From: Ohtaekwangia koreensis
GTDB taxonomy: Bacteria > Bacteroidota > Bacteroidia > Cytophagales > Cyclobacteriaceae
Reading direction: 5' to 3'
DNA: 64,000 bases
NCBI RefSeq assembly: GCF_900167975.1
Contig: NZ_FUZU01000002.1
Location: forward strand, 1,123,501-1,187,500
The position numbers were made by a program, and so were the translations under genes. The notes beneath the pieces are model-generated. The model was not told the DNA's origin and ran no database searches. It worked only from the letters and a program-made list of their open reading frames with translations. This document shows positions 40,693 to 56,314 of the stretch, in pieces (within the stretch, counting starts at the first letter, position 1; every line of letters begins with the position of its first letter).

Positions 40693-42180
40693 TTATTTCC
40701 AATCGCGCACAAGCCTTCCAAGTGTTTTAATTCCTTCCTCTATCTTTTCGTCCCACGGAGCGCCATAGCTCAAACGAAAACAATTTTCAAATCTACCTTG
40801 TGTTGAAAAAATTTGTCCCGGTGCAATGCCGATGTTATGCTTCAACGCGCGCTTGTGAAGTTTAAAAGCATTTATTTTTTTATTCATCTCGATCCATAAC
40901 GTGAAGCCACCTTGTGGTCGTGTAACACGCGTATCATCCGGAAAATATTCTGATACCGCCTGAAGGTAACGAAGCGATTGTGTATGCAGTGCTTTACGCA
41001 AATGACGCAAGTGTAATTCATAACGTCCATTGCTTAAAAAATTGGCAACCGCTGCCTGTGTTAATGTATTAGTAGATACCGAGTGCATACGCTTCAGCCG
41101 AATCACACGCTCTTTAAATTTACCGGGTATAGTCCAGCCAATGCGATAACCTGGTGCCAGCGATTTTGAAAATGATGCGCAATGAAGTACCAATCCTTTT
41201 TTATCAAACGACTTGCAGGTCTTGGGGCGTGTCTTACCAAAATATAGCTCACCATATATATCATCTTCAATCAATGGTATCTCTTTCTTGGCTAGCATGT
41301 CCACGAGTTTTTTCTTGAGATCATCAGGCATGCAGCTCCCCAACGGGTTGTTGAAGTTATTTACAAACAAGCAAGCCTTTATATCAAAGCGAGGTATAGC
41401 TTGCTCCAGGTAATCAATGTCGATGCCCAACAGAGGGTCTGTTGGAATCTCTACAACTTTCAATCCATGGCTTTCCATCACCTGGAAGATCGCATAGTAT
41501 GTCGGTGTTTCAATAGCCACCGTATCGCCAGGTTTTGTAACCGCCTTCATGCAAAGTGAAAGCGCTTCAACAGCGCCTGCCGTAACCACTATATCATCTT
41601 CACTGGGTGTACCTCCCCAGTTGAAAGCTTGCCGCGCAATTTGCTTTCGCAGATCAGCATTGCCCTGCACATTTTCATAATTGAGACAACTCGTAGGCGA
41701 TTCACGTATAGCCTGCAGTGCTGCCTTGTTTAATTTAGCTGTAGGCAATAATTTAATAGAAGGTGTTGCCAGTGAAAAATTAGTTATACCCTTCGCATTC
41801 AGATCACGGTATACACTATTGATCATATCATCAACACTCACCGGCACAGCATCATCTGAAGGTTCGCATACCTGGGGTATATCTAGTGTATGCTCACGCG
41901 AATATTTTACATAGTATCCCGATTGAGGTCTGGCCTCTATCAAACCCTTACTCTCTAAAAAATAATACGCCTGAAATGCAGTGCTCAAACTTATACCCTG
42001 CTCTTTACTGAGTGCTCGTACCGACAGAAGTTTATCACCAACTTTTAAAAGTTTCTTTTCAATAAGCGACTCAATACGTTCGGCTACTTCCGTGTATTTG
42101 TGTTCCGTCTTTACATCCAGCATATCTTTCATGGTAGCACTTAAATAAGTTTTTGATACTTTATATTCTTCAGTATACAC
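40693..42180 (-). CDS. MocR-family regulator (GntR HTH fused to aminotransferase)
   Basis: The 495-residue protein has an N-terminal GntR-type winged helix (residues about 28-95; GDKLLSVRALSKEQGISLSTAFQAYYFLESKGLI) joined to a class I aminotransferase fold. The latter has NNFNNPLGSCMP, PLIEDDIYGELYFG and the PLP lysine in HCASFSKSLAPGYRIGW. MocR regulators bind PLP or a PLP adduct and often control transport or catabolism of amino acids or amines. It is divergent from the DUF817 gene; the 154 bases between the two start codons hold one copy of a duplicated 38-bp sequence (42240-42277). Another Met (residue 17 or 20) is a possible start. Confidence 0.88.
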   Translation of the reverse strand: MYTEEYKVSKTYLSATMKDMLDVKTEHKYTEVAERIESLIEKKLLKVGDKLLSVRALSKEQGISLSTAFQAYYFLESKGLIEARPQSGYYVKYSREHTLDIPQVCEPSDDAVPVSVDDMINSVYRDLNAKGITNFSLATPSIKLLPTAKLNKAALQAIRESPTSCLNYENVQGNADLRKQIARQAFNWGGTPSEDDIVVTAGAVEALSLCMKAVTKPGDTVAIETPTYYAIFQVMESHGLKVVEIPTDPLLGIDIDYLEQAIPRFDIKACLFVNNFNNPLGSCMPDDLKKKLVDMLAKKEIPLIEDDIYGELYFGKTRPKTCKSFDKKGLVLHCASFSKSLAPGYRIGWTIPGKFKERVIRLKRMHSVSTNTLTQAAVANFLSNGRYELHLRHLRKALHTQSLRYLQAVSEYFPDDTRVTRPQGGFTLWIEMNKKINAFKLHKRALKHNIGIAPGQIFSTQGRFENCFRLSYGAPWDEKIEEGIKTLGRLVRDWK

Positions 42181-42239: not shown

Positions 42240-42277
42240 AACTGATCTGGTCAAAAGTAGTAAAATTGAAACTGTTT
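42240..42277 (+). promoter_or_regulatory. Candidate MocR operator, copy A
   Basis: AACTGATCTGGTCAAAA, a five-base variable part, AAAA and TGAAACTGTTT match the sequence at 47223-47260 at 32 of 38 positions. The two AACTGA-like half-sites are about 24 bases apart, in direct orientation. It lies in the divergent promoter region of the MocR and DUF817 genes and ends 57 bases before the DUF817 ATG. I infer a MocR-binding site controlling both directions. Confidence 0.6.
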
Positions 42278-42334
42278 ATTTCATGTGCAAAACAATAAAT
42301 ATTTACATTTGAAACCCTTGACTATCCATATCAT

Positions 42335-43195
42335 TTGAAGCAACTCCATAACGCAATCGAAAATTGTTTTGTACTTCATGGCGATGAAACCAGGTTTATT
42401 TCCTTCCTAAAACAATTTCTATTGTTTGGCTATCTACAGGCTATATCCTGTATATTCCCGGTATTGATTTTTATTTCGCTCGCACTTTCGTCTGCGTTGC
42501 ATATAGGAATTCCGCGCTATGATCTTTTGTTGATCGTCTGTATTATTGCTCAGGTGATCATGTATAAAACCGGACTCGAAACACGTGATGAAGTATATGT
42601 GATCACACTTTTCCATTTACTGGGGCTGATCATGGAATTGCATAAAGTGAATCGCGGTTCATGGTCGTATCCGGATGAGGCATACACCAAAATCATGGGT
42701 GTGCCTTTATATGCAGGCTTTATGTATGCGAGTGTGGGGAGCTATATCTGCCAGGCATGGCGAAACCTCAAGCTTGACACAGTGCATTGGCCGAAAGATA
42801 TATTTGCTATCGGTATAGGCGCAGCCATTTATCTGAACTTCTTTACGAATGCCTTCATCATAGACTTACGGCTATATATAACACTGGTGTTGGTCGTGAT
42901 CTTTTGGAAAACAAAATTTTCATTCAAGCTTCATCAGAAGACATACTATATATCGGCTTTACTTTCATTTTTGATCATTGGCTTTTTTATATGGCTTGCA
43001 GAAAATATTGCCACTTTTTTCGGTGCGTGGAAATACGCTTATCAGCACAGGGGCTGGCAAATGGTAACGTGGCATAAAATTACTTCGTGGAGTTTATTAG
43101 TGATTGTAAGTATTATTATCGTAGGACAATTAAAGCGCCTGAAGGAAAGTCGAACCACGATAAGTTCTTCTTCCTCAGAGATCCCGCAAATGTAG
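42335..43195 (+). CDS. DUF817-family integral membrane protein
   Basis: The 286-residue protein has about eight membrane segments. The family signature is recognisable in LETRDEVYVITLFHLLGLIMELHKVNRGSWSYPDE and in the C-terminal WLAENIATFFGAWKYA. DUF817 proteins are of unknown function. Being divergent from a MocR regulator and preceded by the shared operator-like sequence, it is probably part of the same regulon as the EamA exporter at 47321. It may transport or sense the MocR effector, but that is inference. Confidence 0.82.
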   Translation: MKQLHNAIENCFVLHGDETRFISFLKQFLLFGYLQAISCIFPVLIFISLALSSALHIGIPRYDLLLIVCIIAQVIMYKTGLETRDEVYVITLFHLLGLIMELHKVNRGSWSYPDEAYTKIMGVPLYAGFMYASVGSYICQAWRNLKLDTVHWPKDIFAIGIGAAIYLNFFTNAFIIDLRLYITLVLVVIFWKTKFSFKLHQKTYYISALLSFLIIGFFIWLAENIATFFGAWKYAYQHRGWQMVTWHKITSWSLLVIVSIIIVGQLKRLKESRTTISSSSSEIPQM

Positions 43196-43371
43196 TATCT
43201 GTCCCCAAGCAGTGTGAGACAGAAATGAGTTTATACTTTTCACGTTGCGGAGGCCGACCAACTAACGGATTGAGACGATGAGCAGCCAAAAGGGTCAATC
43301 TCAACTTCTGTAAGATGTGTTAACTTGCATTATCGAAATCGGCTCGTGACGATTTCTGTTTACGTATAGTT

Positions 43372-44190
43372 ATGAGATACCCTACCGCTCGAAACCTTTT
43401 CTTTATAACGTTCCTTATTCTCTTCATAACTATATCGGGTTGTGATGACACTAAAACATTTAGCGTACAAACAGAAACCATAAAGGTAGAATCGCTCGAC
43501 CAGATTGTGCTGGTAGCGGATGTCCTGGTGAAACCATTACTCTATACGCATGTTTCAGGACTTGAAAAACTCCCGGTTCGCAAAGCAAAAGCAAAATTTA
43601 TATCAGCAGTGTTGCCATCCATCCTGGTAGCCAAGCACGAAATCGAACAACGCAGACAAAAGATAGTAGCCTTGCGGGGAAAAACGCGGTGGTCTGAAAA
43701 GGACAGTGCCCTATATATAGACCTGCGGAACCGCTATCGTGCTAAAGATATAGATGACCTGATCGTGCGTACAGGAACGTTACCTACAAGTCTCGTTCTC
43801 GCTCAAGCAGCTGTTGAAAGTGGTTGGGGCAAGTCGAGATTTTTCCTTCAGGCGAATAATCTTTTTGGAGTTTGGTCTTTCAATACAAATGAATCGCGCG
43901 TGGTGGCCAGACGTACGCGAAAAAATAAAAGGATATATGTTCGCGCCTATCCCGATATGTCCAAATCCATAATAGATTATTTTGAGATTCTGGCACGTTC
44001 ACGCACCTATAAAAGTTTACGCGAAGCACGCGCGCAGACAGAAGATCCACTTCAGTTGTTGCCACATTTGAAAAACTATTCCGAGCGAAGAACAGCCTAT
44101 ACCAATCAGTTGAAGAAGATCATTCTGCGCAACAACCTCAAGCAGTTTGATGCATATACCATTGATCCACAGTATTTGGTTGAAGATTAA
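43372..44190 (+). CDS. Glucosaminidase-type lipoprotein (Bax-like)
   Basis: The 272-residue protein has a lipoprotein signal peptide (LFITFLILFITISGCDDTK) and a lysozyme-like domain with LVLAQAAVESGWGKSRFFLQANNLFGVW containing the catalytic Glu, then KNKRIYVRAYPDMSKSIIDYFE. This is the Bax/N-acetylglucosaminidase group that cleaves peptidoglycan glycan strands. It ends 3 bases before the deacetylase gene, so both are co-transcribed. The joined roles (cutting and deacetylating amino sugars) suggest wall remodelling in the periplasm. Confidence 0.87.
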   Translation: MRYPTARNLFFITFLILFITISGCDDTKTFSVQTETIKVESLDQIVLVADVLVKPLLYTHVSGLEKLPVRKAKAKFISAVLPSILVAKHEIEQRRQKIVALRGKTRWSEKDSALYIDLRNRYRAKDIDDLIVRTGTLPTSLVLAQAAVESGWGKSRFFLQANNLFGVWSFNTNESRVVARRTRKNKRIYVRAYPDMSKSIIDYFEILARSRTYKSLREARAQTEDPLQLLPHLKNYSERRTAYTNQLKKIILRNNLKQFDAYTIDPQYLVED

Positions 44191-44193
44191 GTT

Positions 44194-45252
44194 ATGTCGC
44201 GTTTATATATTCTATTTTTTCTTCTATCGGTTTTTTCATGCACTGGCAAGTCGGCATCTGTAGAGGATAGTGCTATACTGACTCAAGGTGATAAAGAAGT
44301 TGTTTGCTTTATATATCATCGTTTTGGTGATTCACGATATCCAACCACCAACACACCGGTAAAAGATTTTGAAGCACACCTGGCATATCTCGCCGATAAT
44401 AATTTTCAGATACTAACTTTTTCTGAGGCTATAGATTATTTGCAATCTGATAAGCCAGCACGGAAAACTGCCGTTATTACCATTGATGATGCCTATAAAA
44501 CTTTTTACGATCGCGGCCTTCCTTTACTCAAGAGATATAGCATGCCTGCTACATTATTTATCAACACCAAAACAGTTGGTGGTGGTGATTATATGAGTTG
44601 GGCGCAGTTGCAAGAAGCCTTAAAAAATAAAGTAGAGATTGGAAATCATACGCACTCCCACGACTTCTTTTTGAATGAGGCTGCCGCTACACGATATAAA
44701 ACTTTTAAGGATGAGATCGAATTAAGCCAATCAATCATAGAAGAAAAACTGGGCAGCAAACCAATCATATTTTCATATCCTTATGGAGAATTTGATGGAA
44801 AGATGAAAGCCATCGTAAAAGAGTCAGGATTTAAAGCGGCAGCAGCGCAGAATTCAGGAGTCATGTATGCAGGGATGGATCTTTTTCAATGCCCTCGCTT
44901 TCCCATGTCAGAAGCATATTCTGAGAAAAGTAAATTTGTAGAGAAAGCAAAGATGAAAGCGCTACACGTGGTGAGCAGCAAGCCTGATAATTTCATTTTG
45001 CCTGCTGATAATCCGCCCGTCCTGACGTTGACATTTGATGGGACGGATTTGCGGATTGATCAGCTCCAGTGTTTTGTACAAGGTGGCGAATGCTCACTTA
45101 AAACTATAGATAAGCAGAAAGTTACCGTTACACTGCAAGCCACAAAGCGCATTGGTAAGAAACGCAGAACGTTGTACACTATAACTGTTCCCGATAAGCA
45201 AGGTATATGGCATTGGTATAGTCATGTATGGATAAATACAGCAGTAGAATGA
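44194..45252 (+). CDS. Polysaccharide deacetylase lipoprotein
   Basis: The 352-residue protein has a lipoprotein signal peptide (MSRLYILFFLLSVFSCTGKS). A NodB-type deacetylase domain spans about residues 35-250. The metal/active-site motifs are AVITIDDAYKTFYD (motif 1, Asp pair), IGNHTHSHDFF (motif 2, two His) and FSYPYGEFDG (motif 3). A beta-rich C-terminal part (residues about 265-352) may bind sugar. It likely removes acetyl groups from an amino-sugar polymer. It starts 3 bases after the glucosaminidase gene. Confidence 0.88.
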   Translation: MSRLYILFFLLSVFSCTGKSASVEDSAILTQGDKEVVCFIYHRFGDSRYPTTNTPVKDFEAHLAYLADNNFQILTFSEAIDYLQSDKPARKTAVITIDDAYKTFYDRGLPLLKRYSMPATLFINTKTVGGGDYMSWAQLQEALKNKVEIGNHTHSHDFFLNEAAATRYKTFKDEIELSQSIIEEKLGSKPIIFSYPYGEFDGKMKAIVKESGFKAAAAQNSGVMYAGMDLFQCPRFPMSEAYSEKSKFVEKAKMKALHVVSSKPDNFILPADNPPVLTLTFDGTDLRIDQLQCFVQGGECSLKTIDKQKVTVTLQATKRIGKKRRTLYTITVPDKQGIWHWYSHVWINTAVE

Positions 45253-45598
45253 TCTATCGGTAAGCATGCTTTAAAGCACATAATATTTCCCCGCGCAACG
45301 CAAGCAGGAATAGTTGTATTGGACATCGCAACGTGTTGCATCGCAAGTGGTTTACTGTCAAAATATATTCGGATATATTCCTATCTTTTTGAACCTTTTT
45401 ACGTTCAACTAAGTGTGTTCGGGATAAGAACAAACCAGTGGAAAATAAAAGTAAAAAACTGGTTTCTTATTAACGCTATCCCGGATATACACATCCATAT
45501 GTAACGATCACATCCGTTGTTGTTCAGTAAATAGCCAAAAACAAGAGGCTCAAACATTCTTCTTTACATTCTTTCAAGTATATATTCAAACAAATAAT
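45253..45598. other. Non-coding stretch without recognised elements
   Basis: 346 bases between the deacetylase and the tiny membrane protein. I find no strong hairpin, no repeat copy and no convincing promoter. A 61-codon open frame (45319-45504) has no signal or domain character and is not counted as a gene. Confidence 0.5.
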
Positions 45599-45727
45599 AT
45601 GATAAGACTAACACTTGCAGTCGGATTTCTGGCTGTGTTCGGCATAGTAGGCTACGCTGTAGTACTGCTCCTGACAAACTATTTTTCTAACCATAATAAA
45701 CCTAACAACAAACCAAACAACAATTAA
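45599..45727 (+). CDS. 42-residue single-helix membrane protein upstream of the SPFH gene
   Basis: The ATG at 45599 opens a 42-codon frame with a clean pattern: MIRL, a hydrophobic helix (LAVGFLAVFGIVGYAVVLLL), and a polar Asn/Pro/Lys tail (NHNKPNNKPNNN). The stop is 2 bases before the ATG of the SPFH gene, so the two are almost certainly translated together. One-pass proteins next to membrane-organising genes often act as partners. The family is not known to me, and it is too short for routine gene calls. Confidence 0.65.
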   Translation: MIRLTLAVGFLAVFGIVGYAVVLLLTNYFSNHNKPNNKPNNN

Positions 45728-45729
45728 AC

Positions 45730-46965
45730 ATGAACCCTTTAATCTCAAAAAAAACCATCGTCATTGGAGTAGTAGCAATCCTCGGTATGGTTTTGTTTCT
45801 GACCATTAATCCATTTTCGTGGAATGATGCTGGTAACAGAACTGTAGTGGAAAGAACAACCGGAGAACAGATCGTACAGTTTGCGCCCGGAATTTTCTAT
45901 GCAGGATTTTTTGCCAAGGAAAAAGAATGGCCTAACCAGATCTCGGTTACGTACCAGGACGAAAATCCTAAACTCGAAATCGAGGACAACGGAATTGAAG
46001 TCGGTCAGATTATGATCCGCTTTAGCGATGCCACTACTGCGAATGTGAAAGGTATAACACAGTTTATATTACCTTCTGATGAGAAGGAGATGATATTGAT
46101 TCATAACACACACAGAACGCCACAGTCACTGGTGGTAAAAAGATTGGCTCCCTATACCAAAGAGTGTTTGCAGTCATCCGCTCAGTTAATGAGTAGCGAG
46201 AAACACTACGGTGGGGGTAGAGCACAAATGGCGCAGGACTTTATGGATCAGTTGAAGGATGGTGTATATCTTTTGAAGACGGAAGAAAATGTAGTATATG
46301 ATTCACTGGAGAAAGAAAAGAAGAGAGTATACCAGACTGAAATTCAATACGACAAAAAGACTGCAGCACCGAAACGTAAATTGTCTTCTATAAAGGAATA
46401 CGGTATTACGGTAGCAGATGCAGCGATAACCGATGTTGACTATGAAGATAAAGTCGATCAGAAGTTAACAAAGATTATTGATGCGGTAACGAAGTCATCT
46501 ATATCTAAACAGGAATTGATGACCGCACAACAACAGACTTTAACAGCGAAAGCTAAAGGTGAGCAGGCCTTGGTTGAAATAGAGTATCAACAGAAGCAAG
46601 AGCAAACCAAACAGGTTGTTGAAGCTGAAACAAAAGTAAAAGTTGCCGAGCAAGACAAGATGCAGCAGAAGATCGCGTATGAGGGTGCTATATTAGAAGC
46701 CAAGAAAATAAAAGAGTTGGCAGATGCACAAGCATATGCTCGCGCTAAAATCATGCAAGCTGACGGTGCCTTGGAAATGAAATTGAAAGCCCAGGTAGAA
46801 GTACAGAAAGTTTGGGCAGATGCATTTAGTAAATATACTGGTGCTATTGTTCCACAATTCCAAACAGGAGGTTCGACTACTACCAATGGTGCATTGAACT
46901 TCATGGACATCATGACTGCTAAGACAGCGAAAGACTTCGCGCTGGACCTGAAGAACAAAAACTAA
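45730..46965 (+). CDS. SPFH (band 7/prohibitin-like) domain membrane protein
   Basis: The 411-residue protein has a membrane helix at residues 7-26 (TIVIGVVAILGMVLFLTIN). A beta-rich SPFH core follows, in which TVVERTTGEQIVQFAPGIFYAGFF starts the domain and IKEYGITVADAAITDVDYED marks its end. A long Gln/Lys/Glu/Ala-rich coiled coil runs over residues about 245-355, and a short disordered tail ends the protein. SPFH proteins assemble into membrane rings or microdomains and regulate proteases or envelope stress responses. With the 42-residue membrane protein 2 bases upstream it forms a two-gene unit, closed by a terminator. Confidence 0.85.
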   Translation: MNPLISKKTIVIGVVAILGMVLFLTINPFSWNDAGNRTVVERTTGEQIVQFAPGIFYAGFFAKEKEWPNQISVTYQDENPKLEIEDNGIEVGQIMIRFSDATTANVKGITQFILPSDEKEMILIHNTHRTPQSLVVKRLAPYTKECLQSSAQLMSSEKHYGGGRAQMAQDFMDQLKDGVYLLKTEENVVYDSLEKEKKRVYQTEIQYDKKTAAPKRKLSSIKEYGITVADAAITDVDYEDKVDQKLTKIIDAVTKSSISKQELMTAQQQTLTAKAKGEQALVEIEYQQKQEQTKQVVEAETKVKVAEQDKMQQKIAYEGAILEAKKIKELADAQAYARAKIMQADGALEMKLKAQVEVQKVWADAFSKYTGAIVPQFQTGGSTTTNGALNFMDIMTAKTAKDFALDLKNKN

Positions 46966-46992
46966 AAATTAGTTAGGTCTTATATTGAGAAG

Positions 46993-47021
46993 AGAGCGGA
47001 ATATACTTCCGCTCTTTTTTT
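46993..47021 (+). terminator. Terminator after the SPFH gene
   Basis: AGAGCGGAA (46993-47001), loop TATAC, TTCCGCTCT (47007-47015), then a run of seven T. It begins 27 bases after the SPFH stop. The rest of 46966-47320 holds only the operator-like sequence annotated separately. Confidence 0.9.
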
Positions 47022-47222
47022 GTTTTATGATTCTGCGGAAGATATAGGCTAAAGTTGTTCACGTTATTATTTTCCTGTCACCACTCATTTGTCCCTACAT
47101 AGCGCAGTTAAACGTTTGCGCCCCAACACAGATGCGTGGTACAGTTATATATGAATGCATGGCATTTGTGAACTTGTCTGCGCTTTCCCCGCTGTATCAT
47201 CCGAGATCTTGAATCAGTTTTA

Positions 47223-47260
47223 AACTGATATGGTCAAAATAAACAAAACTGAAACTGTTT
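47223..47260 (+). promoter_or_regulatory. Candidate MocR operator, copy B
   Basis: AACTGATATGGTCAAAA, five variable bases, AAAA and TGAAACTGTTT repeat copy A (42240-42277) at 32 of 38 positions and in the same orientation. It ends 60 bases before the EamA start. The five adjacent variable bases in the middle fit a spacer between two protein-contact zones. I infer the same MocR regulator controls the gene run that begins at 47321. Confidence 0.6.
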
Positions 47261-47320
47261 TTTTTACGTAATAACTTCAAGATTTGAGTTCTGTTTCACA
47301 CACTATAACAAAACACGCCC

Positions 47321-48238
47321 TTGAAAAGAGAATTACTATTTGCGTACATCGCTTTGGTTGCGATTTGTATCATCTGGGGAACAACGTACCTCGTGATGCG
47401 AATGGCTGTTGTCGAGTTTCCTCCGTTCTTGTTTGTATCGGTTCGCCAGATTATTGCCGGATTGATCCTTGCAGGTTTCATGCTTACCATCGGTAAGATA
47501 AAATTACCCGGAAAGGCTTATATCATTCGCCAGGCGATTGCAGGATTCTTTATGATCACACTTGGCAACGGGTTGGTTGCATGGGCTGAAGTACATATAC
47601 CCAGTGGTGTTGCTGCGGTTATCTGCTCATTGATGCCGGTCACGGTTATTATGATCAACCTTTCTATCAATAGAGAAGAACGTCCTACCGTTCCGATTAT
47701 GCTCGGTGTAGCGATTGGTATGATTGGTATCATTCTCATCTTCAGTGAACACATCAGTGAATTTACAAGGATTGAATATATACTCGGTATCGTGATGACA
47801 TTTGTTGCCGTATTGAGCTGGGCCAGCGCCAGTATATGGTTGAAGAAGCATAGCGAGAATTCAAATCCATTTCTAAACGCAGGACTTCAAATGTTCTTCG
47901 GTGGTGTATGGATGATTCCCTTGTCTTTAATGTTCGATGACTTGAGTGAAGCGCATTGGACACCTGCTATTATATATCCATTAATATACCTGATCGTAAT
48001 GGGGTCCATTGTTGCGTATGCATGTTACTCCTATGTACTGCGCAAATTGCCTATGACAATCGTGTCCCTTTATGCTTACGTGAACCCTTTAGTGGCCGTG
48101 GTATTGGGATGGTTTGTACTTGGTGAAAAGCTTAACCTGAAGATATGGATGGCCATTCTTCTCACGGTGGCAGGTATATATATTGTCAACCGAGGCTACC
48201 AGCTCCGTGATGCATGGAAGGCTCAATTCAGCAGGTAG
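47321..48238 (+). CDS. EamA/DMT-superfamily transporter
   Basis: The 305-residue protein uses a TTG start (47321) and has ten hydrophobic segments in two EamA halves: ICIIWGTTYLVMRMAVVEFPP opens the first, and ILGIVMTFVAVLSWASASIW opens the second. Proteins of this type export amino acids and other small metabolites. They are frequent partners of MocR regulators. A copy of the duplicated operator-like sequence precedes it by 60 bases. It is the first of ten closely spaced genes. Confidence 0.88.
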   Translation: MKRELLFAYIALVAICIIWGTTYLVMRMAVVEFPPFLFVSVRQIIAGLILAGFMLTIGKIKLPGKAYIIRQAIAGFFMITLGNGLVAWAEVHIPSGVAAVICSLMPVTVIMINLSINREERPTVPIMLGVAIGMIGIILIFSEHISEFTRIEYILGIVMTFVAVLSWASASIWLKKHSENSNPFLNAGLQMFFGGVWMIPLSLMFDDLSEAHWTPAIIYPLIYLIVMGSIVAYACYSYVLRKLPMTIVSLYAYVNPLVAVVLGWFVLGEKLNLKIWMAILLTVAGIYIVNRGYQLRDAWKAQFSR

Positions 48239-48240
48239 CA

Positions 48241-48615
48241 ATGCAATCCATTTTATTTCAAACTACTGACTGGAGTGCTGTTCCCGTTACACAGCATAGC
48301 GGAGAACAAGGTATAGCTTTGTGGCGAACGAAGCAGCTTGGAGGTTTACGCATCAGGCTCGTGGAGTATTCTGCTAACTACCGGGCTGATCATTGGTGTA
48401 AGGCAGGTCACATTGTGTATTGTATCGAAGGTGAAATGATTTCAGAGCTGGCGGATGGCAGAACCTATACGCTATCAAAGGGAATGACATACGAGGTTTC
48501 TGATAATGTAAGTATACATCGTTCGTACTCCAAAGACGGTGTGAAGCTTCTGATCATTGACGGAGATTTTTTAAAACATGAATATAATAGAGTAGATAAT
48601 CCATGGAGAATGTAA
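48241..48615 (+). CDS. DHCW-type cupin-fold protein
   Basis: The ATG at 48241 gives 124 residues; the frame also opens at 48214, inside the EamA gene. A cupin barrel is seen in LRIRLVEYSANYRADHWCKAGHIVYCIEGEM, which carries the DHWC segment that names this group, and in YEVSDNVSIHRSYSKDG. The group has no assigned reaction. It starts 2 bases after the EamA stop and its end overlaps the next gene by 13 bases, so it belongs to this operon. Confidence 0.8.
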   Translation: MQSILFQTTDWSAVPVTQHSGEQGIALWRTKQLGGLRIRLVEYSANYRADHWCKAGHIVYCIEGEMISELADGRTYTLSKGMTYEVSDNVSIHRSYSKDGVKLLIIDGDFLKHEYNRVDNPWRM

Positions 48616-49067
48616 CTGCTAAAGTTGTAACGTACCGACCGGAGCATCAGCCGTGGTTTGAAAAATTTAACCGCACCTGGATCGAACGATATTTTTGGAT
48701 GGAGCCAATCGATTTTGAAGTGTTGCAGCATCCGGATAAGTATATCATTGAGAAAGGTGGTACCATACTAATGGTATATGCCGGTGATACAGTTGCAGGC
48801 ACTGCAGCGTTGAAATATGTATCTCCTGGTATTTATGAGTTCACCAAAATGGCAGTGGACGAAAAATTTCAGGGATTGAAACTAGGCAGGTTGCTGGCAG
48901 AAACTTCGATCGCAGAAGCCAAAGCGCTGGGCGCCGTTAAAATTATACTATACTCACACACGAGTCTTACAACAGCCATTGGGTTGTATCGGAAATTAGG
49001 ATTTATAGAGGTACCTGTGGATGGCCCCTATAAAAGGAGTGATATAAAAATGGAATTGGCATTATGA
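48603..49067 (+). CDS. GNAT-family N-acetyltransferase (1)
   Basis: The 154-residue protein has a GNAT fold: FTKMAVDEKFQGLKLGRLLAETSIAEAKALG (strand 4 and the acetyl-CoA-binding QGLKLGR loop), then LYRKLGFIEVP. The acceptor is unknown. It overlaps the cupin gene by 13 bases and the next gene by 4 (ATGA), both typical of coupled translation. Confidence 0.87.
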   Translation: MENVTAKVVTYRPEHQPWFEKFNRTWIERYFWMEPIDFEVLQHPDKYIIEKGGTILMVYAGDTVAGTAALKYVSPGIYEFTKMAVDEKFQGLKLGRLLAETSIAEAKALGAVKIILYSHTSLTTAIGLYRKLGFIEVPVDGPYKRSDIKMELAL

Positions 49068-49582
49068 AATCGGATATCAGAATAAGAAGAGCAACCGTTG
49101 CTGACAAGACTACACTTTGTGCGCTGGGGAAAAAAACGTTTCATGAAACGTTTGATCCCTACAACACGCCTGAGGATATGGAGTCGTATGTAAGCGTAGC
49201 ATTTACTGACGAACAATTAGAAAGTGAGTTGAAGGAAAAAGATACCGTTTTCTTTCTGGCTGAAGATGGAGCTATACCAGCAGGCTATATTAAACTTCGA
49301 AAGGGAAAAAAGCAGGAGGCATTGCCCGACGAACAAATTGAGCTTCATCGTATTTATGTAGACAAGGAATATTTCGGACAAGGTGTGGGTGAAGCTTTGT
49401 TTCAGGCTGGTCTTGAATATGCGAAGCAGGCTGACTGTAAGGTAATATGGCTGGGAGTATGGGAGGAAAATGAGCGGGCAATAGCGTTTTATAGAAAAAA
49501 AGGATTTGAAAAATTCAGTTCACATGTATTCCTGCTCGGTACTGATCCACAGACGGATTGGTTAATGAAGAAATATATATAG
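49064..49582 (+). CDS. GNAT-family N-acetyltransferase (2)
   Basis: The 172-residue protein has IELHRIYVDKEYFGQGVGEALFQAGLEYAKQ (acetyl-CoA loop GQGVGE) and AIAFYRKKGFEKFSSHVF. This group includes polyamine and amino-acid acetyltransferases of the PaiA type, and a PaiB-like gene is in the same run (51839), so a spermidine-like substrate is worth considering but not shown. Its start overlaps the previous stop by 4 bases. Confidence 0.86.
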   Translation: MKSDIRIRRATVADKTTLCALGKKTFHETFDPYNTPEDMESYVSVAFTDEQLESELKEKDTVFFLAEDGAIPAGYIKLRKGKKQEALPDEQIELHRIYVDKEYFGQGVGEALFQAGLEYAKQADCKVIWLGVWEENERAIAFYRKKGFEKFSSHVFLLGTDPQTDWLMKKYI

Positions 49583-49593
49583 TATATATAACT

Positions 49594-50091
49594 ATGCATT
49601 TTAGAATTGCCACCATACAAGATCTGCCTACAATTGTTGCGATCTATAACACTACGGTAGCCGGCAGAATGGTAACAGCTGACACGGAGCCTGTTTCTGT
49701 AGAGAGCAGAGTGAAGTGGTTTGATGCACATGCTACAGCCGACCGGCCATTGTGGATGGTAGAGGATGAAGACTCCGCTATAGTAGGCTGGGTAAGCATT
49801 CAGTCATTTTATGGACGACCAGCGTATCATGGTACAACGGAAATATCAATTTACCTCGATCCGGAATATCGCGGTAAAGGGTTAGGGAAAAAGATTTTGC
49901 AGCAGGCTATAGATGAGTGCCGGACACTCGGGATTAAAACACTGCTCGGTTTCATCTTTGCGCACAATGAGCCTAGTCTGAAGTTATTCAGACACGCAGG
50001 GTTTACCGATTGGGCATTGTTCCCGGATATAGCGGTGTTGGATGGTGTGGAACGAAGCCTTATAATTTTAGGAAAACGTATCGCGCAGTAA
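49594..50091 (+). CDS. GNAT-family N-acetyltransferase (3), phosphinothricin-acetyltransferase-like
   Basis: The ATG at 49594 gives 165 residues. Typical of the PAT group are FRIATIQDLPTIVAIYN at the start, ISIYLDPEYRGKGLGKKILQQAIDEC with the GKGLGK loop, and a later LFRHAGFTDWALFPDIAVLDG. It probably acetylates a small amine or amino-acid analogue. The gap to the previous gene is 11 bases and to the next only 2. Confidence 0.86.
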   Translation: MHFRIATIQDLPTIVAIYNTTVAGRMVTADTEPVSVESRVKWFDAHATADRPLWMVEDEDSAIVGWVSIQSFYGRPAYHGTTEISIYLDPEYRGKGLGKKILQQAIDECRTLGIKTLLGFIFAHNEPSLKLFRHAGFTDWALFPDIAVLDGVERSLIILGKRIAQ

Positions 50092-50093
50092 AT

Positions 50094-50597
50094 ATGAAAA
50101 AGCTCGCATGGTTTGAACGGCAATTTACATTTGGGCTTCCTGCTGGTATGCTCCCGTTTTACCTGGAGCGACTCAGTGGAACCGCTATTCGTATAGAGGC
50201 TAAAGTAAAAGATATAACCGAAGCTATACTTTCGGAAAGACGAAACGAAAAGTGGAGTATAAAACAGAATATAGGACACCTCGCGGAAGTCGATGAGGTT
50301 GCCAATCATCGGATAGATCAGATGTTGCAGGGCGTGCCTGTGATGCTGCCTGCCGTATTTGAGCCCAAAGACTATAATCAGCAACCTGTACAGGAAGTGC
50401 TTGAATACTTTCGTGAAAACAGGCTGAAGAACCTGGCGAAGTATAAAAGTATTCGTGAGGAAGATCTTGCTAAGTCATCGCTTCATCCGCGATTACAATT
50501 GCAGATGAACCCGGTTGATCTCGCATTCTTTGATGCTGAGCATGATGATCACCACCTGGTAATGATAGAAGAAATACTTACTGCCAGTACCCGGTAA
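50094..50597 (+). CDS. DinB-family protein (1)
   Basis: The ATG at 50094 gives 167 residues; the longer frame overlaps the previous gene. Four helices with His residues in the DinB positions are visible: IKQNIGHLAEVDEVANHRI and FFDAEHDDHHLVMIEE. DinB-type proteins are metal-binding helix bundles, with some acting as thiol S-transferases. Function here is unknown. It starts 2 bases after the third acetyltransferase and is followed by 87 bases before the next gene. Confidence 0.82.
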   Translation: MKKLAWFERQFTFGLPAGMLPFYLERLSGTAIRIEAKVKDITEAILSERRNEKWSIKQNIGHLAEVDEVANHRIDQMLQGVPVMLPAVFEPKDYNQQPVQEVLEYFRENRLKNLAKYKSIREEDLAKSSLHPRLQLQMNPVDLAFFDAEHDDHHLVMIEEILTASTR

Positions 50598-50684
50598 CCG
50601 GATTTCCAGGCAGCATACGTATATATAGCACGTGCTTAACAGGAATTTTGATTTGTATTTCCAACACCCTAATCCATACAATCA

Positions 50685-51263
50685 ATGTCAAAGAAAATTA
50701 CCATCGTAGCATTCGACAAGTTTACCGATGTAGATGTATACCTTGCATGGGATCTATTCAATCGAGTTAAGCTGATTGATGACTCCTGGTTGGTAAAAAT
50801 AGTAGGCACTGAAAAAACACATACCTCGGTTACAGGTCTTCCGCTACATATACACGGTACGATTGAAGAATGCGCCACTGCTGATGTTGTATTTTTTTCA
50901 AGCGGTCCTGGCACACGGAAATTAATGCGTGATACAGATTACTTGAGTCGCTTTAACCTTGATCCAACGAGACAATTAATTTGCTCTATGTGTTCAGGTT
51001 CGTTAATTCTTGCGGGCTTGGGATTACTAAATGATATCACTGCCACCACTTATCCAACAGCGATTGAAGAATTAAAATCGTTTGGTGTTACGGTAGAGGA
51101 GAAACCACTAGTGATACATGGCAATATCGCTACCGCTGCAGGTTGCCTGGCGGCTATCGACCTTGTGGGATGGGCCATCGAACGCACGTTAAATACACTT
51201 GCAAAAGACGAAGTACTTGCCTCCGTTCAACCCGTAGGCAAAGGCCTGGAGTGTATATATTAA
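50685..51263 (+). CDS. DJ-1/PfpI-family protein
   Basis: The 192-residue protein begins KKITIVAFDKFTDVDVYLAWDLFNRV, as in the DJ-1/AraC-N subgroup, and has the nucleophile Cys in LICSMCSGSLILAGLGLL plus an FFSSGPGTRKLM loop. This subgroup includes isonitrile hydratases and glutamine-amidotransferase-like stress proteins; the reaction is unknown. It is cytoplasmic (no signal). It sits in the middle of the run and may be the first gene of a sub-operon, since 87 bases precede it. Confidence 0.84.
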   Translation: MSKKITIVAFDKFTDVDVYLAWDLFNRVKLIDDSWLVKIVGTEKTHTSVTGLPLHIHGTIEECATADVVFFSSGPGTRKLMRDTDYLSRFNLDPTRQLICSMCSGSLILAGLGLLNDITATTYPTAIEELKSFGVTVEEKPLVIHGNIATAAGCLAAIDLVGWAIERTLNTLAKDEVLASVQPVGKGLECIY

Positions 51264-51360
51264 TGTAACTCTATACATATATTTTATCGATCGCATATAT
51301 CGAGGGATAAATTTCTCTAGACATCATATTCTCATATTAACGGATAATTTCATAGAAACT

Positions 51361-51810
51361 ATGCTCACACAAGTTCTCAAAACAGTATTCAACAGAGATC
51401 TTTTAAAATTGAAACAGGAGATCGCGTCTTATAAACATGAACCTAACCTTTGGAAAATAGAAAAGAATATAGCCAACCCGGCCGGAAATCTCTGTCTCCA
51501 TTTAGTAGGTAATCTCAATACCTATATAGGTGCAACCTTGGGTAACACAGGCTATATCCGCCATCGTGATTTGGAATTTTCATCACGAGATGTTCCACAG
51601 GAGGAATTGATTCGGAAGGTTGAGGAAACTATACAGGTGGTTGACCGTGTGCTCTCTACATTAACCGAATCACAACTTAATGAAGAGTACCCGTTACTGG
51701 TATTGGCCGAGAAAACTTCAACCGGTTTTTTTCTGGTGCATTTAGCAACGCACCTTACATATCACCTTGGACAGGTAAACTACCATCGCAGGTTGCTTGA
51801 CAGCAATTGA
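51361..51810 (+). CDS. DinB-family protein (2), DUF1572-like
   Basis: The 149-residue protein is a DinB-type helix bundle. It has CLHLVGNLNTYIGATLG and a C-terminal LVHLATHLTYHLGQVNYHRRLL, where the three His positions fit the metal-binding pattern. This is more like the DUF1572/YfiT-type group than the first DinB protein in the run. No function is assigned. It is 97 bases after the DJ-1-like gene and 28 bases before the PaiB-like gene. Confidence 0.82.
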   Translation: MLTQVLKTVFNRDLLKLKQEIASYKHEPNLWKIEKNIANPAGNLCLHLVGNLNTYIGATLGNTGYIRHRDLEFSSRDVPQEELIRKVEETIQVVDRVLSTLTESQLNEEYPLLVLAEKTSTGFFLVHLATHLTYHLGQVNYHRRLLDSN

Positions 51811-51838
51811 AATACTATTCAATCTTAATACAAAAGAG

Positions 51839-52459
51839 ATGTATACCCCAAAGCAATTCAAGAACGATAATGATGCAGAGATAAAGGAATTTGTCAGACA
51901 CAATGGTTTTGGAATTCTGGTTAGTCAGAAGGAAGGAGCCATGTTGGCAACGCATATACCTTTGGAATTGTCGGAAGACGGCACGAAGCTGTCCGGGCAT
52001 ATATCCCGTGGTAATCCACAATGGAAAAGTTTTACAACGGATGATGTGCTGGTGATCTTCAACGGGCCACACACTTATATATCATCTTCCTGGTATAATC
52101 ACGCGAATGTGCCCACCTGGAATTATATAGCGGTTCACGCATACGGCAAAATCAACATCATAGAAGACGAGGAACTGTTTAATTCATTGGCGAACCTGAT
52201 GAACAAGTACGAAAAGAACTCACAGCATCCTGTTACAGTAGAAAAGCTCACACCTGAATATATAAAACGTGCCATGCAGGGAGTCGTTGGCTTTGAGGTC
52301 ACCATAACAAAACTGGAAGCAACGTATAAGCTATCACAAAATCGTGATCACGAAAGCTATAATTCCATTGTTCACGAATTAGAGAAACGTAAAGATGAGA
52401 ACTCCGAGCAAATCGCCCAGGCGATGGTAAAGAACCACGCTTCACTTTTCAACACTTAA
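51839..52459 (+). CDS. PaiB-like FMN-binding protein
   Basis: The ATG at 51839 gives 206 residues. MYTPKQFKNDNDAEIKEFVR and the later SGHISRGNPQWKSF, LVIFNGPHTYISSSWY and VPTWNYIAVHAYGKINI are typical of the PaiB family, a split-barrel flavin-binding fold. In Bacillus, PaiB is encoded with the polyamine acetyltransferase PaiA and affects protease production. The three GNAT genes in this run make a similar pairing possible. It starts 28 bases after the second DinB gene. Confidence 0.86.
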   Translation: MYTPKQFKNDNDAEIKEFVRHNGFGILVSQKEGAMLATHIPLELSEDGTKLSGHISRGNPQWKSFTTDDVLVIFNGPHTYISSSWYNHANVPTWNYIAVHAYGKINIIEDEELFNSLANLMNKYEKNSQHPVTVEKLTPEYIKRAMQGVVGFEVTITKLEATYKLSQNRDHESYNSIVHELEKRKDENSEQIAQAMVKNHASLFNT

Positions 52460-52472
52460 TATCCCAACAACC

Positions 52473-53885
52473 ATGCATCCGCTTTTAGAAAACGATAAAC
52501 AAGATCTGCGCCAAATACTGAGTAATACAGTGACGCTGGCAGAAGAATATTTAGCGCAGCAGGAGTCACTGCCGCCAGGTCGTTTTATCAAAGATATACC
52601 GCTGGAAGATATACCCGAGCGTGGCGAAAGTGCACTCCATGCACTGGAATATTTCAAGCAACACTACGCACCCTATATAACCAACAGTGCCGGTCCGCGG
52701 TATTTTGGTTTTGTTACCGGAGGGTCAACGCCTGCAGCGGTAGCCGGAGATTGGCTGGTAAGCGCTTACGATCAGAACGCTTGTGGCAGTAACGACTCCA
52801 TAGCACCACAGGTAGAGCGCCAGACTATACATTTTTTTAAACAGCTTTTTGGATTAGACGATATATACTTCGGAAGCTTTGTAACCGGAGCAACGGTGTC
52901 CAACCAGGTAGGTCTCGCGTTGGGCCGTCAGTGGGTTGGTGAGCAATATGGCAAAGATTTTAGTGCTGAGGGAAGCTATAACGTTTTACCAGTGAAGGTG
53001 GTGAGCGCTACACCGCACTCGAGTATTCTGAAGTCCATGGCTATATTAGGCATGGGCAGAAATACGCTTGTTAAAATTGACACCTTGCCTGATCGTGAAG
53101 CTATAGATATAGTGGCATTGGAAAAATATCTGCAGACCGTAAATGAGCCGGTAATTGTTGTTGCCAATGCGGGCACTGTAAATACGGTAGACTTTGATGA
53201 TCTGGAAGCTATTGGCAAACTGAAAGCGAAATATCCTTTCTGGTTACATATAGATGCAGCCTTTGGTGGATTCGCTGTACTGTCAAAAAAATACACTCAT
53301 CTCGTACAAGGTATAAATCATGGCGACAGCATCACTATTGATGCTCATAAATGGCTGAATGTTCCCTACGATGCAGCGATGCAGTTTACGCGTCACAAGC
53401 GTATTCAATTAAAAGTATTCCAAAACAGTGCTGCGTACCTGGGTGATCCTGAGCAAAGTCCGGATTACTTTCACTATACACCTGAGAACTCGCGCAGATG
53501 GCGAGCACTTCCTTCCTGGTTTACACTGAAGGCTTATGGAAGAGAAGGTCATCGCGAAATTGTAGAACGTAATTGCGACACGGCATATAGTCTTGGTGAG
53601 AAGATCAAGCAATCATCTGAGTTCAGGTTGCTGGCTCCCGTTCGTATGAATGTAGTTTGCTTTACGTTGAATCAGGAGGGAGTGACCTTTGATGGTATAC
53701 GCGCATATCTGAGCGCAATCCGTGATGATGGCCGGGCATTCTTTACCCCAACGCTTTATAAAGGCGTGCCTGCCATCCGTGCTGCTATTTCAAACTGGCA
53801 AACAACGGAGGCCGATATTCAACTCGCATTTGATGTGCTCACAGAAGTGTATCAAACACAAAAGCACACTTTGATACCTGCGTAA
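52473..53885 (+). CDS. PLP-dependent group II decarboxylase (aromatic-amino-acid-decarboxylase-like)
   Basis: The 470-residue protein has the pyridoxal-decarboxylase II layout: PRYFGFVTGGSTPAAVAGD, the middle segment VVANAGTVNTVDFDDLEAI, and the PLP lysine in ITIDAHKWLNVPYD. It probably removes CO2 from an amino acid such as an aromatic one or glutamate, giving an amine; the neighbouring acetyltransferases and exporter could then act on that amine, which is inference. It closes the ten-gene run (13 bases after the PaiB gene). Confidence 0.87.
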   Translation: MHPLLENDKQDLRQILSNTVTLAEEYLAQQESLPPGRFIKDIPLEDIPERGESALHALEYFKQHYAPYITNSAGPRYFGFVTGGSTPAAVAGDWLVSAYDQNACGSNDSIAPQVERQTIHFFKQLFGLDDIYFGSFVTGATVSNQVGLALGRQWVGEQYGKDFSAEGSYNVLPVKVVSATPHSSILKSMAILGMGRNTLVKIDTLPDREAIDIVALEKYLQTVNEPVIVVANAGTVNTVDFDDLEAIGKLKAKYPFWLHIDAAFGGFAVLSKKYTHLVQGINHGDSITIDAHKWLNVPYDAAMQFTRHKRIQLKVFQNSAAYLGDPEQSPDYFHYTPENSRRWRALPSWFTLKAYGREGHREIVERNCDTAYSLGEKIKQSSEFRLLAPVRMNVVCFTLNQEGVTFDGIRAYLSAIRDDGRAFFTPTLYKGVPAIRAAISNWQTTEADIQLAFDVLTEVYQTQKHTLIPA

Positions 53886-54050: not shown

Positions 54051-55124
54051 ATGACAACTTTAACGACTTCAATCCCAGTGCAGCGTATTGCGAAATCGAG
54101 AATCAAAGAAGTTGATTTCAATAACCTGGAATTCGGAAAATACATTGCTGACCACATGGTGGTCGCAGATTTTAAAGATGGTAAATGGCATGAGCCTGCA
54201 ATTTTCCCATATGGTGATATGCTCATGAGTCCCGCGATGCTTTCACTTCATTATGGTCAGGCAGTATTCGAAGGGATGAAAGCCTTCTTCATGAATGATG
54301 GTAACATCAATATATTTCGTCCGCAGAAACACCATGCACGTTTCAACAGATCACTCGATCGTATGTGTATGCCGCAGATCAGCGAGGAAGCTTTTATTCA
54401 GTCACTACGCGCGTTGATTGAACTCGATAAAGATTGGATCCCTACCAGCGAAGGATCTTCATTCTATATTCGTCCATTCATGTTTGCTTACGAAGCAAGA
54501 CTCGGTGTTAAAGTTGCCGATCATTTCAAATTTATAATTATCAATAGTCCTGTAGCTGCATACCAGGCTAAACCATACCGCCTGAAAGTAGAAGATACAT
54601 ACGTACGTACTGCTGAAGGAGGTACTGGCTTTGCTAAATGTGCGGGTAATTATGGCGGAGCATTTTATCCTACACAGATTGCACGTGAGGAGGGCTTCGA
54701 TCAAATTCTTTGGACGGATCACAAAGAGCATAAGTATATAGATGAGGTTGGTATGATGAACGTGATGTTCGTGATCAACGGAAAACTCGTCACACCTAAA
54801 TTGACAACAGCCATTCTCGATGGTATTACGCGTGACACAATTTTAACGCTTGCAAAAGATATGGGCGTTACGGTTGAAGAACGTAAAGTAAGCATCGATG
54901 AAATTGAAGCTGGCTTGAAAGATGGCTCTGTAACAGAAGCTTTCGGAACAGGTACCGCTGCCGTTGTGGCGCCGATTGCCGTAATCAAAATCAAAGGAAA
55001 TGATTTAATTATACCAGAGGCCGGACCAGACAGCTTCCAGCTTCGCGTGAAGAAAAAATTAAATGATATCCGTATGGGTGTTGAACCCGACAAGCACGGA
55101 TGGAATTATATCATTCACGTTTAA
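54051..55124 (+). CDS. ilvE2: Branched-chain amino acid aminotransferase (second copy, long type)
   Basis: The 357-residue protein has the eukaryotic/type II BCAT features: SPAMLSLHYGQAVFEGMKAF, RPFMFAYEARLGVKVADHF, KCAGNYGGAFYPTQIAREEGFDQILWTDHKEHKYIDEVG with the PLP Lys (in KCAGNYGG), and GITRDTILTLAKDMGV. It works on Val, Leu and Ile. No attenuator is seen upstream, only a possible -7 box (TAAGTTTG at 53934-53941), so it may be a catabolic or constitutive enzyme. The first copy opens the ilv operon. Confidence 0.92.
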   Translation: MTTLTTSIPVQRIAKSRIKEVDFNNLEFGKYIADHMVVADFKDGKWHEPAIFPYGDMLMSPAMLSLHYGQAVFEGMKAFFMNDGNINIFRPQKHHARFNRSLDRMCMPQISEEAFIQSLRALIELDKDWIPTSEGSSFYIRPFMFAYEARLGVKVADHFKFIIINSPVAAYQAKPYRLKVEDTYVRTAEGGTGFAKCAGNYGGAFYPTQIAREEGFDQILWTDHKEHKYIDEVGMMNVMFVINGKLVTPKLTTAILDGITRDTILTLAKDMGVTVEERKVSIDEIEAGLKDGSVTEAFGTGTAAVVAPIAVIKIKGNDLIIPEAGPDSFQLRVKKKLNDIRMGVEPDKHGWNYIIHV

Positions 55125-55229
55125 ACCTTGCCTTACTGGACCATGTATTAAACATTTCCGGAAGAGCTTGTGGTGAGGTTGAAATATATACTTGCTAAAT
55201 ATAGTTAAAAATAAAATTAAGAATTGCCT

Positions 55230-55285
55230 AAACCTCATCCAGATACTTTCCTTTCAGGGAAGTTGCACGGATGAGGTTTCTTTTT
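55230..55285 (+). terminator. Terminator after the second branched-chain aminotransferase
   Basis: AAACCTCATCC (55230-55240) pairs with GGATGAGGTTT (55269-55279), with a shorter inner stem (TTCC/GGAA) in the loop, then TCTTTTT. It precedes the ATG at 55298 by only 13 bases, so the following gene may need its own promoter or read-through. Confidence 0.78.
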
Positions 55286-55297
55286 GAAACTGATTTT

Positions 55298-56314
55298 ATG
55301 TTCGCATCCAAAAAAAGAGCTGTCCTTTTTAAAGGCAAAGATTATCCGGTAGAAGTTCAGGAATTTAAAAAGCCACGACTGGTAAAAGATCAAGTGCTGA
55401 TTCGCATGCATTATGCTGCGCTCAATCATCGCGATCTGTGGGTGATCAAAGAACAAGCACAGCATTTTCCGGATGGAATTGTATTGGGTTCGGATGGTTG
55501 TGGTGTAATTGAAGATGTAGGAGAGGATGCAGATCCAATGTTGGTAGGATTGGAAGTTGTGATCAATCCAAGTTTGGACTGGGGTGATAATCCGATCGTG
55601 CAAGGTGACAGGTTTAGAATTCTCGGTTTCCCGGATAACGGAACCTTCAGTGATTACCTGGCGATCTCGAAGAAATATATATTTGAAAAGCCGGAGCATC
55701 TCACCTTCGAAGAATCAGCTGCCGTACCGTTGTCTGGTCTTACTGCTTACCGCGCATTGTTCTCGAAAGCAAGATTGCGCTCTAAAGAAAAAGTATTGAT
55801 CACAGGGATAGGAGGAGGAGCAGCGTTGTGGGCATTGCAATTTGCTGTTGCCTATCAGGCGCGGGTATATGTAACGTCCGGTTCAGACGAAAAAATAGAA
55901 AAGGCAAAGAGGCTTGGAGCGCTTGGTGGTTTTAACTATAAAGATCCGGAGTGGGCAACCAAGGCACAGAAGGAAACCGGAGGCTTCGATATTATTATTG
56001 ACAGTGCAGGTGGTGATCAATTCAATAAACTCATTGAGCTTGCCTTGCCCGGTGGAAGAATTGTAAACTTCGGTCGCACGGCCGGCAACATTACCGAAGT
56101 AGCCACGCGATTGCTCTATTGGAAGCAACTTTCTGTTCTTGGTACAACCATGGGAACACGAGATGAATTCTTATCGATGCTGGATTTTATTGAAGGCAGG
56201 AAAATCAAACCTGTTATCGACCAGGTATATTCCATCGACCAGGTAAATGAAGCTTTCCAACGAATGGAAAACAGCGATCAGTTTGGCAAGATTGTATTAA
56301 AAATCGCCCGGTAA
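55298..56314 (+). CDS. Zinc-binding/MDR-type dehydrogenase (quinone-oxidoreductase-like)
   Basis: The ATG at 55298 gives 338 residues; the longer frame begins within the terminator stem. A GroES-like N domain (MHYAALNHRDLWVIKEQAQHFPDGIVLGSDGCGVIEDVG) is followed by a Rossmann part with VLITGIGGGAALWALQFAV and FDIIIDSAGGDQFNKL. The family reduces or oxidises alcohols, aldehydes or quinones using NAD(P)H. A structural zinc Cys set is not evident. It starts a run with two acetyltransferases and a flavin-binding protein. Confidence 0.86.
   Translation: MFASKKRAVLFKGKDYPVEVQEFKKPRLVKDQVLIRMHYAALNHRDLWVIKEQAQHFPDGIVLGSDGCGVIEDVGEDADPMLVGLEVVINPSLDWGDNPIVQGDRFRILGFPDNGTFSDYLAISKKYIFEKPEHLTFEESAAVPLSGLTAYRALFSKARLRSKEKVLITGIGGGAALWALQFAVAYQARVYVTSGSDEKIEKAKRLGALGGFNYKDPEWATKAQKETGGFDIIIDSAGGDQFNKLIELALPGGRIVNFGRTAGNITEVATRLLYWKQLSVLGTTMGTRDEFLSMLDFIEGRKIKPVIDQVYSIDQVNEAFQRMENSDQFGKIVLKIAR

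Follow-up and report, generated by a model that had tools for sequence, protein, structure and literature searches.

A 64,000-nucleotide stretch of the genome of Ohtaekwangia koreensis (contig NZ_FUZU01000002.1, positions 1,123,501 to 1,187,500; hereafter the window) holds two copies of a 38-bp sequence that are very likely, by their position and conservation, an operator pair of a MocR-type regulator encoded beside one of them. Copy 1 lies in the gap between mocR and a divergent gene of the DUF817 family, and copy 2 precedes a run of ten genes led by eamA, which encodes an EamA-type transporter. We consider it highly probable that both copies are operators of the MocR protein encoded at 40693-42132, with a scheme of activation and autorepression: MocR likely activates the eamA operon, and likely represses its own gene in this genome. 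The pair was noticed in an original prediction made from the window; beyond it, the operators follow a spacing rule relative to promoters, and this rule is present in several bacterial families. The features that carry the argument are as follows.

40693..42132, minus strand: mocR, MocR-type regulator with a winged helix and an aminotransferase-like domain; the open reading frame (ORF) stays open as far as a GTG at 42180
42240..42277, plus strand: operator copy 1, in the mocR-DUF817 divergent gap upstream of mocR (pattern, R1 profile, family conservation)
47223..47260, plus strand: operator copy 2, upstream of the EamA-led operon (pattern, R1 profile, conservation in genus and family)
47321..48238, plus strand: eamA, EamA/DMT transporter (Pfam PF00892), first gene of the predicted regulated operon

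Direct comparison of the two copies gives an identity of 32 of 38 positions on the same strand, and agreement in the flanks is confined to a few adjacent T-rich positions. The TTG start codons of the DUF817 ORF (42335) and the EamA ORF (47321) lie 57 nt from copy 1 and 60 nt from copy 2, respectively. The coordinates and counts of the original prediction are thereby confirmed, and the ten-gene run it described is real, extending over 47321-53885 with ORF gaps of -82 to +97 nt. With up to three mismatches, the pattern proposed there matches twice in the window, against 0.00 matches expected from 100 dinucleotide shuffles, and twice in the whole 7,241,272-base genome, where the backwards control gives none. 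The sequence-only profile R1, built from 28 sites (alignment A2), recovers the same two sites only (copy 2, E 6.8e-12; copy 1, E 1.7e-10), the next match being partial (model positions 4-27, E 0.19); this search scored 150 of 6,027 first-look candidates and could miss very weak sites. A scan of the genome for many copies at unrelated genes, or for a general repeat of this sequence, returns no further clear copy.

Other 38-mers of the window repeat more exactly, but they belong to an unrelated dispersed and partly tandem repeat with the core TCTGCGTTAATCTGTGAAATCTGCGG, found at 218-740 (with a period of about 106 bp), 29208-29245 and 62458-62700. Its sequence differs from that of the operator, and it has 26 genome matches at up to three mismatches and none in the backwards control. 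A degenerate remnant of it, recognised by eye, lies at 42202-42225 between the start of mocR and copy 1. The remnant may explain the 107-nt gap between copy 1 and the mocR ATG, a gap that is shorter in several relatives.

The operator can be described as two half-sites in the same orientation, with CTG at operator positions 3-5 and 33-35, 30 bp apart (the definition of the boxes is our own). Among the 28 aligned sites, positions C33-T36, T4 and G5 are invariant and C3 is present in 26; TGG occupies positions 9-11 in most of them and CTGT positions 33-36 in all. MocR operators have been described as repeats of two, three or four boxes set one or more helical turns apart, with conserved TGT or TGG (PMC5320631). 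The operator found here fits these published traits: it has repeated boxes at a helical-turn spacing, contains the conserved TGT and TGG triplets and tracks an orthologous regulator.

In the genus, a site precedes the EamA gene in all seven genomes (pattern sites, with genes located by tblastn), and all seven carry MocR. Their R1 sites at E<=1.5e-6 number 11, one or two clear ones per genome and with no excess of copies, and the next match has E 0.083. Among 148 genomes of the family, MocR orthologs at E<=1e-60 are present in 26. At E<=1e-6, R1 finds sites in 17 of the 148; each of these belongs to the 26, and the 122 others have none (Fisher 3.7e-16, kinship ignored). R1 was trained on MocR-bearing genomes and is biased towards such genomes; 45 first-look candidates were scored per genome, and the E-values are rough. 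The pattern search, slightly widened after the relatives had been seen, finds sites in 18 of the 148 genomes, 17 of them with MocR. The exception, a three-mismatch match in G056, which has no MocR, is absent from the R1 matches at E<=0.01 and was counted as chance. Weaker R1 matches only (best E 4.7e-4 to 0.01) are found in 16 further family genomes, two of which (G053 and G116) carry MocR, with their best matches adjoining mocR.

Twenty genomes, the seven of the genus and 13 others including G106, have close orthologs with MocR at least 60% identical. A site lies before eamA in 19 of these and near mocR in 13; the mocR sites of G003, G004 and G050 are weak (26.7-32.0 bits). The one close ortholog with no clear eamA site is that of G106, where eamA adjoins mocR and the decarboxylase and branched-chain aminotransferase (BCAT) genes are absent in locus L100. 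In G039, G109 and G144, mocR and eamA are divergent and have one common site. The distance from site to eamA ORF varies from less than 100 to about 500 nt, and by eye a small ORF seems to intervene in some loci. Homologues of the pyridoxal phosphate (PLP)-dependent decarboxylase and of BCAT lie downstream in every one of the 18 loci that have a site and enough sequence on that side (17 fetched loci and the window; L089 is too short), and a GNAT homologue in 17 of the 18. Extra weak sites were also seen in MocR genomes (G089, G098 C194; L078, L071).

Outside the family, we examined the best 80 of 591 named loci, mostly of Bacteroidota with a few others, and dropped L102-L104, which are training genomes or copies of them, leaving 77. 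A site scoring at least 15 lies within about 260 bp upstream of mocR in 54 of the 77, and in the reverse orientation in none. Control windows elsewhere in the same loci reach this score in 6 of 9,558 cases, and at least three of the six are, by score, the Chitinophaga sites described below. By eye, the 54 sites, whose majority sequence is AACTGTTATGGTCAAAATTACAAAAACTGTATCTGTTT, repeat none of the 18 38-mers used in training. No such mocR site was found in 23 of the 77 loci, the Sorangium, Archangium and Verrucomicrobia loci among them. Ten sites lie away from mocR: the one in L102 is the window's eamA site in a near relative; six belong to Chitinophaga, where a second site stands 62-136 nt before a decarboxylase-eamA operon (with the tblastn start taken as gene start); those of L105 and L107 are at locus ends and not assignable; and that of L125 (22.0 bits) has no related gene nearby. 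Co-occurrence and position across the genus, the 148 family genomes and the named loci thus support, by phylogenetic footprinting, the proposal that a MocR operator connects mocR with the EamA run.

A more distant MocR subgroup, with about 45-49% identity (L026-L031 and other BCAT-linked loci), has BCAT across the upstream region and a variant operator, AACTGTACCCNNCAAA...ATCTGTAA.

The sites stand in a fixed register to promoter elements. Bacteroidota promoters are described with -33 and -7 elements TTTG and TANNTTTG, with a nearly invariant T at -12 and a G at -5 (PMC6847099), and the -7 box is given likewise in PMC9723704. For Flavobacterium johnsoniae the same paper reports a weak -33 motif, far less evident than the -7 box, and next to no G at positions -10 and -9 (PMC6847099). 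In a set of 95 distinct sites (named loci scoring at least 15, family loci scoring at least 24, and the window, with identical 78-mers merged), the TTTG end of a -7 box falls at +26 after the 38-mer in 55 and at +25 in 14, that is in 69 of the 95, and at any other offset in at most four. The downstream sequence played no part in the choice of these sites. The first T of the -7 box is present in only 9 of the 55 sites with TTTG at +26. By arithmetic, with G at -5, the start of transcription is position 69, which puts the second half-site (33-35) at -36 to -34 and the first near -66. A half-site near -33 is an activator-like geometry. The functional unit looks longer than the 38 bp of the original prediction, comprising the operator, 18 nt and the -7 box. 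The boxes predicted in the window are these.

47279..47286, plus strand: predicted eamA -7 box AAGATTTG, in the TTTG register, departing from TANNTTTG at the first T
42252..42259, minus strand: predicted mocR -7 box TACTTTTG (as read on the minus strand), inside operator copy 1
42304..42311, plus strand: candidate DUF817 -7 box TACATTTG, 8 nt off the activator register

The eamA box would place the start of transcription at about 47291 and leave a 30-nt leader, and the predicted start for mocR is at about 42247. Within 42100-42345, TANNTTTG occurs once on the minus strand, at 42252-42259, and once on the plus strand, at 42304-42311.

Family sites, sorted by their neighbouring genes, differ in their promoter features. 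All 16 sites that serve eamA only have the TTTG register, and none has the reverse -7 box CAAANNTA at positions 13-20; mocR-side sites have the register in 2 of 10 and the reverse box in 7 of 10 (reverse box in mocR-side compared with eamA-only sites: Fisher 1.8e-4, with near-copies from close species kept). The three sites shared by mocR and eamA all have the register. These counts leave out L083:12821, with no assigned target, L085 and L087, whose MocR falls short of 60% identity, and also the weak sites in L071, L078 and L088. The two mocR-side sites with the register, those of L077 and L082, both head a divergent outer-membrane-like gene; since the operator there has a phased -7 box, this gene may be a further regulon member in these genomes. 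By eye, a divergent, secreted, outer-membrane-like protein of about 250 residues adjoins mocR at L077:7947-8693, L082:5501-6280 and L083:12867-13637. CGT at positions 45-47, found in 16 of 16 eamA-only, three of three shared and three of ten mocR-side sites (L077, L082, L083), was considered as a third MocR box and rejected, as its three mocR-side sites face this divergent gene; we read it as a promoter feature of targets in this bacterial family.

The only TANNTTTG on the minus strand of the gap lies inside copy 1, and the DUF817 box is off register; for these reasons copy 1 is most likely the autoregulatory site of mocR and not a site of DUF817. The original prediction located copy 1 correctly in the mocR/DUF817 gap. 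DUF817 as a conserved target of copy 1 is not supported, as mocR sites persist in relatives with no DUF817 found beside mocR.

These observations are best explained by the following mechanism. MocR, probably a dimer with PLP, would read the two same-orientation, CTG-centred half-sites, about three helical turns apart. At copy 2, the second half-site would take the place of the -33 element of the eamA promoter, with the -7 box, minus its first T, at a fixed distance. MocR bound there most likely recruits RNA polymerase and so turns on the transporter/decarboxylase/acetyltransferase operon, and the trigger would be an amino-acid-like effector reacting with the PLP of MocR. At copy 1, the -7 box of the mocR promoter lies inside the operator, and MocR binding there most likely keeps mocR itself repressed.

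The regulator belongs to the MocR subfamily of GntR regulators and is predicted to bind PLP and both operators. It has an N-terminal GntR winged helix (PF00392, E 1.4e-10, over the cut-off) and a C-terminal fold-type-I aminotransferase-like domain (Pfam Aminotran_1_2, PF00155, E 8.1e-38). Lysine K323 in the SxSK motif, which we take to be the PLP lysine of the MocR family, is invariant in 23 of 23 sequences. The best NCBIfam match is PdxR (NF052282), at 268.2 bits and so under the curated cut-off of 320. An AlphaFold model (pLDDT 86.3, pTM 0.80) has its best fold matches in LysN-type aminotransferases, over the C-terminal domain. GabR (4n0b) and DNA-bound PdxR (7zn5, 7zla) match it over most of its length with a root-mean-square deviation of 26-28, taken to mean that the domains are placed differently in the model. 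The genome holds three proteins with a GntR helix-turn-helix (HTH), among them a second, divergent MocR-like protein at G000:C4:124475-124666 (L241, L242), with a GNAT-like ORF nearby.

The predicted target operon and its surroundings comprise, besides eamA, the following genes.

48214..53885, plus strand: rest of the ten-gene run, encoding a DHCW cupin, three GNATs, two DinB-like proteins, a DJ-1/PfpI protein, an FMN_bind_2 protein and a PLP-dependent decarboxylase
54051..58376, plus strand: same-strand continuation, encoding BCAT (ilvE_II), a zinc-type dehydrogenase, two GNATs, Pyridox_ox_2 and a glyoxalase
42335..43195, plus strand: DUF817 gene (Pfam PF05675, E 4.8e-92), doubtful as a regulated target

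The nearest NCBIfam model for the EamA protein is the YedA exporter, below the cut-off, and the FMN_bind_2 protein is presumably PaiB-like. Co-transcription of the BCAT-led continuation with the ten-gene run is uncertain: the continuation has gaps of 165, 146 and 125 nt, and a candidate -7 box TAAGTTTG lies at 53934, in the 165-nt gap before BCAT. The regulated transcript may end before the Pyridox_ox_2 gene (57220). Judging by its gene content, the operon would be a system for PLP-linked handling and export of amino acids or amines. Elsewhere in the window, another gene with a class-IV aminotransferase domain is found at 21843-22520 (G000:C5:1145343-1146020), a domain with four genome matches.

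Several observations weigh against the scheme of MocR-dependent activation and autorepression. Fourteen MocR-negative genomes have weak R1 matches (best E 7.7e-4, in G037), which is above the rough E-value expectation; we have treated them as chance. Seven of the 20 close orthologs have no clear mocR site (G001, G002, G005, G021, G030, G098, with G106 borderline), and autoregulation is therefore not universal; of these, G002 and G005 keep the mocR-DUF817 pair with no site at all. The exact reverse box is absent from all three shared sites and is present in only 26 of 54 mocR-side sites of the named loci. The eamA box AAGATTTG has a G at -10, where Flavobacterium johnsoniae promoters nearly lack it, so that the identity of the eamA promoter is inferred. 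Finally, a covariation between recognition helix and operator speaks for binding by MocR, but it amounts to four residue and three base changes on the tree and is not significant in an independent-pairs test. It concerns helix residue 50 (S, G or N) and operator base 10 (for these residues mostly G, A or C, respectively): N is paired with C in 12 of 15 cases against 1 of 65 for other residues, among the 80 of 105 rows that have a readable helix and a site agreeing with the consensus at 24 or more of 36 positions.

The strongest competitor accepts binding by MocR at copy 2 and reverses its outcome: a half-site over -33 would block polymerase and repress eamA until an effector relieves it, as for EnuR, which is described as a repressor (PMC8739950). 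The overlap of the operator with the -33 position speaks for it, though the sequence shows no direct sign of repression. A repressor would, however, be expected to tolerate varied spacing, whereas the register observed here, constant at 25-26 nt to a -7 box that in most sites is short of its first T, fits a promoter in need of help. GabR, a full-length fold match, activates gabTD while repressing itself (PMC9452892; PDB titles). Repression of eamA is accordingly possible but rather unlikely. Less probable still is that copy 1 mainly controls DUF817 and not mocR. The gene is adjacent and has a good -7 box of its own at 42304, but this box is 8 nt off register, the site is missing from the mocR-DUF817 gap of G002 and G005, and relatives in which no DUF817 homologue was found keep their mocR sites.

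The three GntR-HTH proteins of the genome also allow that the site belongs to another regulator, for example the second MocR-like protein or the third GntR-HTH protein, and is near mocR by coincidence. We regard this as very improbable, as no site was found near the second MocR-like gene (best position weight matrix score -1.0, in L242), and the sites track MocR over the 148 genomes and, in other families, stand next to mocR genes related to this one. That the sequence is a dispersed repeat or a general promoter element can hardly be entertained: the operator does include or abut promoter elements, and an unrelated dispersed repeat is common in the window, but that repeat is a different sequence, and the two genome-wide copies, the empty backwards control and the R1 profile, over its 150 scored candidates, speak against a repeat. 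Activation of eamA and autorepression of mocR by MocR remain the preferred reading.

Among known systems, GabR of Bacillus subtilis, of the MocR subfamily, is one of the closest. Besides the fold match to 4n0b over the full length, its gabR-gabTD control region has repeated boxes within 41 bp that overlap divergent promoters, and GabR is an autorepressor and an activator of the neighbouring operon (PMC9452892). It differs in its proposed sites, a pair of 6-nt direct repeats enclosing an inverted one, as no inverted middle box is seen here by eye, in its target genes, and in its sequence, with 19-20% identity in structural alignments; the promoters here are of the Bacteroidota -33/-7 type. In content, the operon resembles the PdxQ regulons, reported to include a DMT (drug/metabolite) transporter, PNP (pyridoxine phosphate) oxidases, a RimI acetyltransferase, a GloA lyase and PLP aminotransferases (PMC5320631, Suvorova and Rodionov 2016). 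By Pfam, all five kinds of protein are represented in the window cluster, in a comparison of content only, while its decarboxylase, DinB-like and DJ-1 genes are absent from the PdxQ list in the main text of that paper. The PdxQ trait of a PLP-metabolic oxidase (pdxO, pdxO2 or pdxH) together with a DMT or LysE transporter under a MocR may have a counterpart here in the EamA and PNP-oxidase-like domain proteins. PdxR, of Bacillus clausii and others, is the best NCBIfam model, and structures of holo-PdxR with DNA (7zla, 7zn5) match the model; unlike PdxR, the MocR protein here stays under the curated cut-off, and none of the 18 scanned window proteins looked like pdxST, pdxK or pdxU.

Predicted regulons have been reported for 23 Bacteroidota MocR proteins (PMC5320631, Table 1); our literature search found no paper from Bacteroidota on such a MocR operator and none on its spacing rule, and the motif may already be listed in the supplements of that paper or in RegPrecise. 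We lean slightly towards a design shared by MocR activators across Bacteroidota, in which a 30-bp direct-repeat operator has its second half-site replacing the -33 element, a rigid spacing to a -7 box that mostly lacks its first T and, where the regulator's gene carries a copy of its own, that gene's -7 box buried within it, and in which the spacing alone predicts the target. If so, one operator design would serve to activate genes in one direction and to shut off its own regulator in the other. Targets could then be read from the sequence by the spacing between operator and -7 box. The content of the regulon, with its transporter, PLP decarboxylase, BCAT and acetyltransferases, would also point to a system for the handling of amino acids or amines.

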